From positions 1,302,001-1,366,000 of the forward strand of contig NZ_CP011036.1 of NCBI RefSeq assembly GCF_002221505.1: DNA of 64,000 nucleotides, written 5' to 3'. Below the pieces are notes generated by a model that saw nothing but the letters and a program-made list of their open reading frames with translations, did not search any database and was not told the DNA's origin. The number at the start of each line of letters is the position of its first letter. Position 1 is the stretch's first letter. The translations under genes and the position numbers were made by a program. This document shows positions 30,342 to 33,345 of the stretch, piece after piece. The stretch comes from Pseudoalteromonas nigrifaciens (GTDB lineage Bacteria > Pseudomonadota > Gammaproteobacteria > Enterobacterales > Alteromonadaceae).

Positions 30342-30558
30342 AGAAAGATTAATTATGGCTAAATAAAGGGATGTGTAGTGTAACCGTTAATCATAAATTG
30401 ATAAATCCGTAATTACCGCGCATAGTTACTTTAGCCAAAAAGTTTACAATTAATTAAACTAAAATGAAATTTTTTATTTTTATACAGGTCTACTTAAATA
30501 CATACTCGTATTTTCCAATTCTTTGGTTATACAATCTTATTAAAAAGAGAGTCATATA

Positions 30559-31401
30559 ATGAATACAATCAAAAAAAGTTCAATCGCGTTAACACTAGGT
30601 GCAGTTGTTGTTGGCTCTGCAAGCTTTGTATCTGTGGATGTGCAAGCCAATCCTTTTGAGTTTCAACAAATGGTTACCGGCTATCAAATAGATGCTACCG
30701 AAGGTAAGTGTGGCGAAGGTAAATGTGGCGGCGAAGCAAAAGCTAAAAAAGAAGGCAAATGTGGCGAAGCTAAATGCGGCGCAGATGCAAAAGCTAAAAA
30801 AGAAGGCAAATGTGGCGAAGCTAAATGCGGCGCAGACGCAAAAGCTAAAAAAGAAGGCAAATGTGGCGAAGCTAAATGTGGCGCAGATGCAAAAGCTAAA
30901 AAAGAAGGCAAATGTGGCGAAGCTAAATGCGGCGCAGATGCAAAAGCTAAAAAAGAAGGCAAATGTGGCGAAGCTAAATGCGGCGCAGATGCAAAAGCTA
31001 AAAAAGAAGGCAAATGTGGCGAAGCTAAATGCGGCGCAGATGCAAAAGCTAAAAAAGAAGGCAAATGTGGCGAAGCTAAATGCGGCGCAGATGCAAAAGC
31101 TAAAAAAGAAGGCAAATGTGGCGAAGCTAAATGCGGCGCAGATGCAAAAGCTAAAAAAGAAGGCAAATGTGGCGAAGCTAAATGCGGCGCAGATGCAAAA
31201 GCTAAAAAAGAAGGCAAATGTGGCGAAGCTAAATGCGGCGCAGATGCAAAAGCTAAAAAAGAAGGCAAATGTGGCGAAGCTAAATGCGGCGCAGATGCAA
31301 AAGCTAAAAAAGAAGGCAAATGTGGCGAAGCTAAAAGTGACGTAGATGCAAAAGCCAAAAAAGAAGGCAAGTGTGGTGAAGGTAAGTGTGGCGGTCATTA
31401 A
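30559..31401 (+). CDS. hvfA: HvfA/bufferin-type RiPP precursor with expanded KCG repeat array
   Basis: 280 residues. A signal-peptide-like leader (about 1-31, ending VQANP) and a short conserved spacer (FEFQQMVTGYQIDAT) precede a core made of 17-residue repeats: one variant unit, 11 identical units EGKCGEAKCGADAKAKK, one degenerate unit (EAKSDVDAK) and a final EGKCGEGKCGGH. I count 27 cysteines, all in KCG: 16 as EGKCG and 11 as EAKCG; the leader has none. EGKCG is the motif that DUF692 enzymes with a DUF2063 partner convert to oxazolone/thioamide or thiooxazole groups that bind copper. The next two genes are those enzymes. Secretion to the periplasm and copper buffering are inferred from that family. 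The array is far longer than in precursors I recall. Confidence 0.88.
   Translation: MNTIKKSSIALTLGAVVVGSASFVSVDVQANPFEFQQMVTGYQIDATEGKCGEGKCGGEAKAKKEGKCGEAKCGADAKAKKEGKCGEAKCGADAKAKKEGKCGEAKCGADAKAKKEGKCGEAKCGADAKAKKEGKCGEAKCGADAKAKKEGKCGEAKCGADAKAKKEGKCGEAKCGADAKAKKEGKCGEAKCGADAKAKKEGKCGEAKCGADAKAKKEGKCGEAKCGADAKAKKEGKCGEAKCGADAKAKKEGKCGEAKSDVDAKAKKEGKCGEGKCGGH
30700..31398. repeat. 51-bp tandem repeat array inside hvfA
   Basis: Eleven in-frame 51-bp units occupy 30,751-31,311, with diverged units at each end (30,700-30,750 and 31,312-31,398). The units are almost identical at DNA level; I see only GAC for GAT in one unit and TGT for TGC in another. Such homogeneity implies recent expansion or gene conversion. 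Because the unit has no stop in several frames, long antisense frames appear here and are artefacts. Confidence 0.95.
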
Positions 31402-31459
31402 AATTTATTAAAGTAGAATAACTTTACTTCAGGTTAAATACTTTAATACCATATAGAAT

Positions 31460-31482
31460 AAAGGGCCGGTTGGCCCTTTTTG
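31460..31482 (+). terminator. Terminator/attenuator between hvfA and hvfB
   Basis: AAAGGGCC pairs with GGCCCTTT around GGTT, followed by a T run, ending only a few bases before the GGGAG ribosome site of hvfB. Partial termination here would give more precursor than enzyme. Confidence 0.8.
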
Positions 31483-31494
31483 TTGGGAGTGGTT

Positions 31495-32352
31495 ATGACA
31501 CAAATTATAAATACTGACTTAGGTATGGTTGGTTTAGGCTTACGCAGAGAAATGCTTGACGAGTTACTAATGCATGTACCTAAACAAGTCGATTTTATGG
31601 AAGTTGCTCCAGAAAATTGGCTGAAATTAGGTGGGCGTTTTAAAAAACAATTTAAAGCATTAACCAGTGCTAATAGTTTTGCTTGTCATGGCTTATCGCT
31701 CTCAATTGGCTCAACTGCGCCAATTGATATTGAATTTGTAAAATCACTTAAAAAGTTTTTTGATGAACATGATGTAAAAATTTACAGCGAGCACTTAAGT
31801 TACTGCTCTGGCACTGGGCATATGTACGATTTAATGCCTATTCCGTTTACTTTAGAAGCGATTGCTCATGTAGTGCCGCGTATCAAACAAGTACAAGATA
31901 TATTAGGGCGCCAAATTGCTATAGAAAATGTGTCTTATTACGCAGCCCCAGGGCAGAAAATGTCAGAGCTGGCGTTTACTAATGCTATTTTAGAGCAAGC
32001 TGATTGTAAGCTGTTACTCGATGTGAATAATATTTATGTGAACTCAGTAAACCATGGTTATGACGCCGAAGCCTTTTTAACCGGATTACCTACACAGCGC
32101 ATTGCTTACGGCCATGTAGCTGGGCATTACAATGAAGCAGATGATCTAATTGTAGATACTCATGGTGCAGATGTAATTGACCCAGTTTGGCAGTTACTCG
32201 ATAAAGCGTACCAAACTCACGGTGTATTTTCGACGTTGCTCGAGCGAGATTTTAATATACCGACCATTAATGTATTAACCAAAGAGCTAGATATTATTCA
32301 TAACCTGCAAGCAAAATACCTTGATAAATCATTAATCAAACAGCGAGCTTAA
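31495..32352 (+). CDS. hvfB: HvfB: DUF692 iron-dependent RiPP-modifying enzyme
   Basis: 285 residues with a TIM-barrel DUF692 fold. Metal-binding and family segments: GLGLRREMLDELL, MEVAPENWL, CHGLSLSIGS, IYSEHLSYCSG, IAIENVSYYA, LLLDVNNIYVNSVNHG and YGHVAGHY, with the late VDTHGADVIDPVW. Homologues (MbnB, TglH, HvfB) use two or three iron atoms and oxygen to modify peptidyl cysteines. The ATG at 31,495 has GGGAG 5 bases upstream and is preferred over an earlier in-frame codon. The partner HvfC follows after 45 bases. Confidence 0.93.
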   Translation: MTQIINTDLGMVGLGLRREMLDELLMHVPKQVDFMEVAPENWLKLGGRFKKQFKALTSANSFACHGLSLSIGSTAPIDIEFVKSLKKFFDEHDVKIYSEHLSYCSGTGHMYDLMPIPFTLEAIAHVVPRIKQVQDILGRQIAIENVSYYAAPGQKMSELAFTNAILEQADCKLLLDVNNIYVNSVNHGYDAEAFLTGLPTQRIAYGHVAGHYNEADDLIVDTHGADVIDPVWQLLDKAYQTHGVFSTLLERDFNIPTINVLTKELDIIHNLQAKYLDKSLIKQRA

Positions 32353-32397
32353 TAAGCATGTCTGAACCTAGAGTGCCTGCAAAAGGAGTATTTAGTT

Positions 32398-33150
32398 ATG
32401 AGCTTTATTGAAATACAAAACGAATTTATGGCGCATATTCGCAAACCCAGCCAAAATAAAAAGCCGCAAGGAATTGAAGATAGACGCATGGCGATTTACC
32501 GCGATTTATTTTTTAATAATATTGTTGGGTTTATTTCGTCAGGTTTTCCGGTGTTAAAAACCTTATACAGCGATAAACAATGGCAAATGCTTATTCGCCG
32601 ATTTTTTAGTGAATATGATTGTCACTCACCGTATTTTTTAGATATAGCAGGGGAGTTCATTAATTATTTATCAAGTAATTATGAGATGCAAAAATATGAT
32701 CCGCCATTTATGCTCGAGCTTGCCCATTATGAATGGATTGAATTAGATGTAGCTATTACACAGCAGGCTGAAAATGAGCAACTCATAGCGTCTGATCAGG
32801 TTGCTTCTGCGCGTTTGTACTTATCAAGTACTGCACGTAATTTAAGTTACCAATTTGCGGTGCAAACAATAAGTACACAGTTTCAGCCGCAACAACCATC
32901 AGCACAGCCAAATTATTTTGTTGTATATCGCGATGGCGATGATGAAGTTCAATTTTTAACAACTAATGCTATGACAGCCTTGTTATTATCGATTATAAGT
33001 GAGCATGATGGTTTGATACTCGATACTATTTGCGAGCAAGTAACCCGCCATGCTGTGCAGTTTAGCGCTGCACAAATTGCCCAAGGCGCACTTGTTACTT
33101 TACGTGCCATGGCTGAGCTTGGGATTATAGTGACAAAAAATCAAGCTTAA
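32398..33150 (+). CDS. hvfC: HvfC: DUF2063 partner protein of HvfB
   Basis: 250 residues. The N-terminal DUF2063 domain has FIEIQNEFMAHIRKP, RRMAIYRDLFFNNIVGFISSGFPVLKTL and WQMLIRRFFSEYDCHSPYFLDIAGEF. The C-terminal winged-helix-like part has ALLLSIISEHDGL and LVTLRAMAELGII. DUF2063 proteins form a heterodimer with DUF692 enzymes and recognise the precursor leader. A spacing of 45 bases and a purine-rich site (AAAGGAG, 32,381-32,387) fit cotranscription. Confidence 0.92.
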   Translation: MSFIEIQNEFMAHIRKPSQNKKPQGIEDRRMAIYRDLFFNNIVGFISSGFPVLKTLYSDKQWQMLIRRFFSEYDCHSPYFLDIAGEFINYLSSNYEMQKYDPPFMLELAHYEWIELDVAITQQAENEQLIASDQVASARLYLSSTARNLSYQFAVQTISTQFQPQQPSAQPNYFVVYRDGDDEVQFLTTNAMTALLLSIISEHDGLILDTICEQVTRHAVQFSAAQIAQGALVTLRAMAELGIIVTKNQA

Positions 33151-33222
33151 GCTCTTTATAGATTATTTTACATCGTTTATTATGACGCCCTTATGTGTCG
33201 TGCTTAATAAAAGGTTGTAAAA

Positions 33223-33345
33223 ATGTCAGATGATAAAGAATTTAAAGATCCGTTCAATGCAGCGTACTTTTTTGGCTTCGTAGCTATATTTGTAGGTATT
33301 GGTTGCTTAAATGCAATTGTTGGCTGGTTTGCTGTGTTATCTTAA
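33223..33345 (+). CDS. Small single-span membrane protein downstream of hvfC
   Basis: 40 residues: a polar N-terminus (MSDDKEFKDPFNAAYFFGF) and one membrane helix (VAIFVGIGCLNAIVGWFAVL). AAAAGG lies about 9 bases before the ATG. It follows hvfC by 72 bases and a terminator follows it, so it may be the last gene of the RiPP operon, in the place where other loci have the DoxX-like HvfD. Not otherwise recognised. Confidence 0.65.
   Translation: MSDDKEFKDPFNAAYFFGFVAIFVGIGCLNAIVGWFAVLS

Follow-up and report, generated by a model that had tools for sequence, protein, structure and literature searches.

The hvfABC locus of Pseudoalteromonas nigrifaciens encodes a long tandem-repeat HvfA precursor whose unit number differs between sister genomes

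We analysed the hvfABC locus in a 64,000-nucleotide stretch of the Pseudoalteromonas nigrifaciens genome (assembly GCF_002221505.1, contig NZ_CP011036.1, positions 1,302,001 to 1,366,000), referred to here as the window. The locus consists of a precursor gene, hvfA, whose product carries a tandem array of KCG motifs, followed by hvfB and hvfC (Table 1). All three products score above curated NCBIfam cut-offs, which bears out the identities proposed in the initial annotation: HvfA reaches 121.6 bits with NF050188 (cut-off 95) and 335.5 bits with NF050137 (cut-off 19.5), HvfB reaches 434.6 bits with NF003818 (cut-off 360), and HvfC reaches 299.6 bits with NF050145 (cut-off 142). In Pfam, HvfB matches MNIO/DUF692 (PF05114, 347 bits), HvfC matches PF09836 (DUF2063, 94.8 bits) together with PF22106, and no family matches the precursor. 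HvfB scores under the NCBIfam cut-offs of BufB, ApyH, MbnB, and ChrH; with TIGR04159, the model of the MbnB type found in methanobactin synthesis (MbnABC), it reaches 43.2 bits against a cut-off of 325, and it is not of that type. Solved relatives are PDB 3bww for HvfB (E 1e-72) and PDB 3dee for HvfC (E 1e-8). HvfB contains LRRE and ERDFN motifs that, assigned by motif alone, should hold the equivalents of Arg15/Arg16 and Asp249/Phe250 of FonB. The window genome has one MNIO gene and one KCG array gene, and its sole DoxX match lies on another contig (C2:124766-125023). Judged by these profile matches, the locus is a real and ordinary member of the HvfABC (captophorin/Buf_EGKCG) family with a long array.

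Table 1. Features of the hvfABC region, in window positions
Feature	Position	Strand	Basis or remark
Promoter-like TGAAA-N17-GGTCTA (ECF/sigma-E-like)	30465..30492 (G000:C1:1332465-1332492)	+	Pattern search; ends 66 nt upstream of the hvfA start codon
hvfA, precursor, 280 aa, 27 KCG	30559..31401	+	NF050188, NF050137
Putative Sec-type signal peptide, residues 1-30, putative cut after VQA	30559..30648	+	By eye
HvfA core: EGKCGEGKCGGEAKAKK + 11 x EGKCGEAKCGADAKAKK + EGKCGEAKSDVDAKAKK + EGKCGEGKCGGH	30700..31398	+	Tandem Repeats Finder, repeat anatomy
Stem-loop AAAGGGCC-GGTT-GGCCCTTT, then TTGTT	31460..31479	+	Between hvfA and hvfB; conserved in place
hvfB, MNIO (DUF692) maturase, 285 aa	31495..32352, ATG 31495 (alternative TTG 31480)	+	NF003818, PF05114
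hvfC, DUF2063 partner protein, 250 aa	32398..33150	+	NF050145, PF09836
40-aa one-helix open reading frame (ORF), apt-linked, not hvf	33223..33345	+	apt adjacency in 30/30 loci

The repeat array of hvfA is not a product of chance. All 27 Cys residues of the precursor lie within KCG, 16 of them in EGKCG and 11 in EAKCG, and a recount gave the same numbers as the initial annotation, including the 11 perfect 17-residue units. These units (EGKCGEAKCGADAKAKK) span residues 65-251 and stand between an opening block (EGKCGEGKCGGEAKAKK) and a degenerate 12th unit (EGKCGEAKSDVDAKAKK), after which comes a closing block (EGKCGEGKCGGH); Cys is present at 27 of the 28 motif positions. The N-terminus, read by eye, shows KK, a hydrophobic stretch, and VQA followed by N at the putative cut. 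At the DNA level, Tandem Repeats Finder reported a period of 51 bp with 13.6 copies, a 96% match, and a score of 1255. Of the 11 perfect units, nine (1 and 4-11) share a single DNA sequence, from which units 2 and 3 each depart by one silent change.

To place the array within the genus, we counted KCG motifs in Pseudoalteromonas genomes, 107 of 108 of which contain HvfB. We kept 97 of the 107 loci and excluded nine arrays truncated at the end of a contig and one locus that stops short of any array; an array with an in-frame stop upstream was taken as open, and three of the kept loci (3, 5, and 7 Cys) may be fragmentary or include unread bases. The 97 open arrays have a median of 14 KCG, and the top four hold 58, 34, 27, and 24, the window ranking third. 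Cys is kept in all 58 motifs of the longest. A Pseudoalteromonas precursor with 58 Cys has already been published (PMC12452194; here and below, published work is cited from the portions available to us). The array had been described as exceptionally long for the family; it lies instead in the upper tail of the genus, within the known range. The arrays that reach a contig end are L016, L017, L038, L052, L054, L058, L091, L099, and L102, and draft genomes will undercount long hvfA arrays.

Comparison with related genomes showed that repeat number changes fast. In the nearest sister genome (G101), HvfB is 98% identical to that of the window, the leader protein is identical, and the flanks align closely (880 of 900 positions identical upstream; 1,886 of 1,952 columns downstream, with 50 mismatches and 16 gaps). 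The G101 array, however, has three units against 11 in the window, which makes it shorter by exactly 8 x 51 bp, or 136 residues. A silent T common to all three G101 units is absent from all 11 window units, as concerted evolution would give. Across the genus, KCG counts were equal in none of the seven pairs with HvfB identity of at least 99% and in 9 of 33 pairs at 97-99%, with differences of up to 45. The expectation that repeat number changes holds, both between these sister genomes and at near-constant HvfB throughout the genus. Among strains of the window's species, the only variants found were two shorter alleles with the window's leader in the protein database (P0121, 110 residues; P0140, 81 residues), on contigs of up to ~15 kb, and P0121 shares the EAKSDVD block of the window. 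Their short arrays are possibly the result of short-read assembly collapse, and the firm statement on unit change rests for this reason on the sister genome. Cys-to-Ser losses have struck the EAKCG Cys of the last unit in the window and G101 and an EGKCG Cys in P0121; they affect both kinds of motif, as would follow from each site being dispensable on its own.

EAKCG is rare in the genus, with 16 copies against 1,330 of EGKCG, and occurs in 4 of the 97 open arrays (11 copies in the window, three in the sister genome, and one in each of two others). Among 80 loci fetched by HvfB similarity, 54 lie outside Pseudoalteromonas, and seven of these contain one to three EAKCG (Paraferrimonas, Shewanella sp. 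HN-41, Lacimicrobium, Planctobacterium, two Rheinheimera, and one metagenome-assembled genome). Two homologue searches (the best 120 of 742 and the best 120 of 4,409 matches, together 232 distinct proteins) gave EAKCG in 64 of the 232 among the matches listed. Many of these 64 are near-identical proteins of 143 residues with four EGKCG and four EAKCG, the named ones mostly from Shewanella baltica. In S. baltica HvfA (P0181), EGKCGEAKCGAD stands four times, once in every unit as in the window, but the units are four in number, diverged, and ~22 residues long, with eight KCG in all. Two further proteins that match HvfA, P0033 (444 residues) and P0071 (429 residues), also carry the MNIO domain PF05114 and are possible precursor-maturase fusions or missed stops.

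The second motif had been regarded as puzzling, a view that the fontiphorin system of Fontimonas thermophila does not support. In native FonA67-80 (SGEAKCGEGKCGEK), 4 H are lost at each Lys-Cys and both Cys become 5-thiooxazole; FonA-PE, a two-repeat substrate whose core the variant names give as EAKCGEGKCG, became 8 Da lighter when treated in vitro with FonBC; and FonBC tolerated the tested non-Pro changes at motif position 2 (PMC13097082). Because the fontiphorin EAKCG is converted and the S. baltica array alternates both motifs, EAKCG is most likely an ordinary substrate here as well, like EGKCG. As for the product, the oxazolone/thioamide that the initial annotation named as one option has since been revised by two groups, who assign a 5-thiooxazole instead (PMC13097082, PMC13419390).

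Upstream of hvfA lies a promoter-like element whose TGAAA and GGTCTA parts resemble ECF (extracytoplasmic function)/sigma-E promoters. TGAAA-N17/18-GGTCTA occurs at this place in 59 of 96 genus loci (97 less one without a usable start) and in 20 of 47 loci of other genera (54 less three that were cut, two without an array, and two with a spurious frame), against averages of 0.03 and 0.0 in 200 mononucleotide shuffles; the loci are related and the counts not independent. One of the three exact sites in the window genome is inside ahpC and is most likely a chance occurrence. Another (L225 1170-1198; G000:C1:292670-292698) lies between fxsA-like (assigned by eye) and cutA-like genes, upstream of cutA-dsbD; the cutA-like product scores 104.7 bits with NF041095, under its cut-off of 120, and the next gene, dsbD, scores 726 bits with NF001419 (cut-off 330). 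The cutA-like gene was matched in 103 of 108 genus genomes, and we fetched the loci of the 30 closest relatives. The exact element stands at the same place in 13 of these 30 (shuffles, 0.02), and the other 17 have TGAAA and GGTC with the last base or two changed. This is one conserved site and not 13 independent ones, because the upstream regions of these closest relatives are alike throughout.

An ECF-type promoter shared by hvf and cutA-dsbD is suggested by these sequence patterns, and it is a fair inference that the two belong to a common regulon of metal and periplasmic thiol stress, which the presence of the element before cutA-like and dsbD genes fits. Such a regulon would also fit the hvf operon of Haemophilus influenzae, which is RpoE2-dependent under hypochlorite (PMC7907618), and the DUF2282-MNIO operons of Caulobacter, which require sigma-F (PMC3511200); by analogy with these relatives, envelope stress may control the locus. 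A search for the responsible sigma factor did not find it: the element is upstream of none of the four small sigma-70 genes examined, a near match ending TCTT lies just inside one sigma gene, and a stricter pattern gave no match.

The gap separating hvfA from hvfB contains a GC-rich hairpin with a T-rich tail, in the window AAAGGGCC-GGTT-GGCCCTTT followed by TTGTT. Such a hairpin sits at this position in 59 of 105 loci of the genus and in 37 of 47 from other genera, against averages of 0.25 and 0.75 in 20 mononucleotide shuffles (an earlier form of this comparison yielded 122 of 180, against 5 in one shuffle each). The position of the hairpin is conserved and the letters of its stem are not. 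Against reading it as a functional element, the window's fold of -13.1 kcal/mol has a z of only -1.33 and was equalled by 21 of 200 dinucleotide shuffles; moreover, a consensus scanner listed the hairpin only on the minus strand, with three sites in the region versus 2.8 by chance. The hairpin is probably a partial terminator or a stabilizer of the transcript end, and its likeliest role would be that of a partial terminator keeping precursor above enzyme.

A divergent dus gene precedes hvfA, and hvfC is followed by the 40-residue ORF, apt, and dnaX. Of 26 named Pseudoalteromonas loci, 25 have apt downstream, and many loci from Shewanella and Alteromonadaceae have these neighbours too, spaced differently. 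The small ORF, with no Pfam or NCBIfam match, has relatives in 55 of the 394 genomes that were sampled across the order, spread over 13 of 114 genera. We had considered it a conserved part of the hvf locus, a match being present in 106 of 106 genus loci with a listed one, and dropped this assignment: all 30 loci fetched have apt alongside the ORF, and 19 of them show no sign of hvfB/hvfC in the surrounding ~1.5 kb, so that it belongs to the apt neighbourhood. Its predicted product is a small membrane protein that is so far undescribed. The interval first assigned to the locus, which ends at 33345, wrongly takes in this ORF; hvfC ends at 33150. The one genus genome in which HvfB is absent (G006) has, between dus and the small ORF (L221, G006:C101:105800-113000), just a stretch from the C-terminal end of hvfC (55 residues, 49% identity). 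About 190 bases are left besides this remnant, which indicates that hvfA is gone from that place too.

Several characterized systems resemble the locus. The Buf_EGKCG/oxazolin precursors of Pseudoalteromonas (PMC12452194) share its genus, 17-residue repeats with two KCG each, and adjacent MNIO and DUF2063 genes, and have a Sec signal, which is putative in the window; the published repeats are described as having two EGKCG each, with a maximum of 58 Cys, whereas the second motif of the 11 window units is EAKCG and the Cys number 27. Fontiphorin FonABC (PMC13097082) has the same precursor-MNIO-PME1 arrangement without DoxX and places EAKCG beside EGKCG, with both made into 5-thiooxazole; unlike the window, it has seven sites, the order in FonA67-80 is EAKCG then EGKCG, and the portion of the paper available does not describe a long homogeneous array. 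The HvfABC/HvfX oxazolin system of H. influenzae (PMC13419390, PMC7907618), whose HvfA, HvfB, and HvfC models the window genes match, differs in having six EGKCG sites and in carrying DoxX within its operon. MmrABC of Microbulbifer (PMC12538549), also from a marine gammaproteobacterium, has two-Cys cassettes with Lys spacers and 5-8 Cys; all Cys were modified in Escherichia coli, including all six of MmrA, and EAKCG is absent from the paper's main text.

From these relatives, we infer that HvfA would be made with a Sec signal and presented by HvfC to the iron enzyme HvfB, which would oxidize the Cys of each E(G/A)KCG, with loss of 4 H, to 5-thiooxazole. The modified peptide would then be exported and buffer copper in the periplasm. 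EGKCG and EAKCG would both be substrates, with position 2 tolerating Gly or Ala, and recombination or slippage would raise and lower the repeat number in steps of one or more complete 51-bp units. We give this joint reading a probability of about 0.87. EAKCG would be common in the window because the amplified unit carried it. Several points weigh against the reading. The published cases compared modify six or seven sites, so that 27 is an extrapolation (PMC13097082, PMC13419390, PMC12538549); one-repeat FonA was unmodified in vitro (PMC13097082); and for long precursors, threading or a pair of enzymes may be required (PMC12452194). No DoxX gene stands beside hvf, unlike in the H. influenzae operon, although this feature is frequent and not obligatory. 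Finally, the exact promoter-like pattern is not enriched genome-wide, with three sites (three forward, none reverse) versus six for the reversed control (two and four).

The alternatives concern how much of the array is modified and whether its length is real. If one HvfBC pair cannot reach 27 sites before export, the array would be only partly modified and its extra units would be a neutral product of instability. The wide differences in KCG count at near-constant HvfB are consistent with this, and two MNIO genes accompany some of the long precursors (PMC12452194), whereas the window genome has one. Cys is nevertheless kept at nearly all window positions and throughout the longest array, a retention that recent duplication would also explain, and we consider partial modification unlikely but not negligible. 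It is very unlikely, in our view, that EAKCG stays unmodified, as a spacer or a free-thiol metal site in a peptide that alternates thiooxazole and thiol ligands. The scarcity of the motif in the genus would suit such a role, as would the replacement by Ser of an EAKCG Cys in the last unit of window and sister genome alike, but the EGKCG Cys replaced in P0121 means that the loss is not special to EAKCG, the EAKCG of natural FonA is converted to 5-thiooxazole, and FonBC accepts the tested non-Pro changes at position 2 (PMC13097082). An assembly artefact might be suspected from the nine genus arrays that stop at the end of a contig, since assemblies break at tandem repeats. Yet the window genome is 4.27 Mb in three contigs, units 2 and 3 have private silent changes, the last unit is distinct, and two other genomes have longer arrays; we regard an artefact as extremely improbable.

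Long arrays (58 Cys) and EAKCG as a substrate were already known; what is added here, the literature having been searched for sigma control of such operons in general, is the promoter-like element shared with cutA-dsbD and a hairpin conserved in place. A striking array has been shown to be a regular HvfA/captophorin, and the question of EAKCG is settled as far as relatives allow. The promoter-like element and the hairpin after hvfA offer testable handles on the switching of the operon and on precursor excess. Repeat number may, hypothetically, tune metal capacity. Array length might even be an evolvable dial, by which gain and loss of whole 51-bp units would make strains differ several-fold in periplasmic copper sites per peptide, E(G/A)KCG variants would set the affinity mix, and the number of units would be set not by drift alone but also by selection from copper or envelope thiol stress, sensed via a sigma factor common to hvf and cutA-dsbD; this proposal is speculative, and we think it quite improbable. 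Sister genomes with three and 11 otherwise matching units constitute a natural experiment on whether the number of sites per peptide sets copper capacity.

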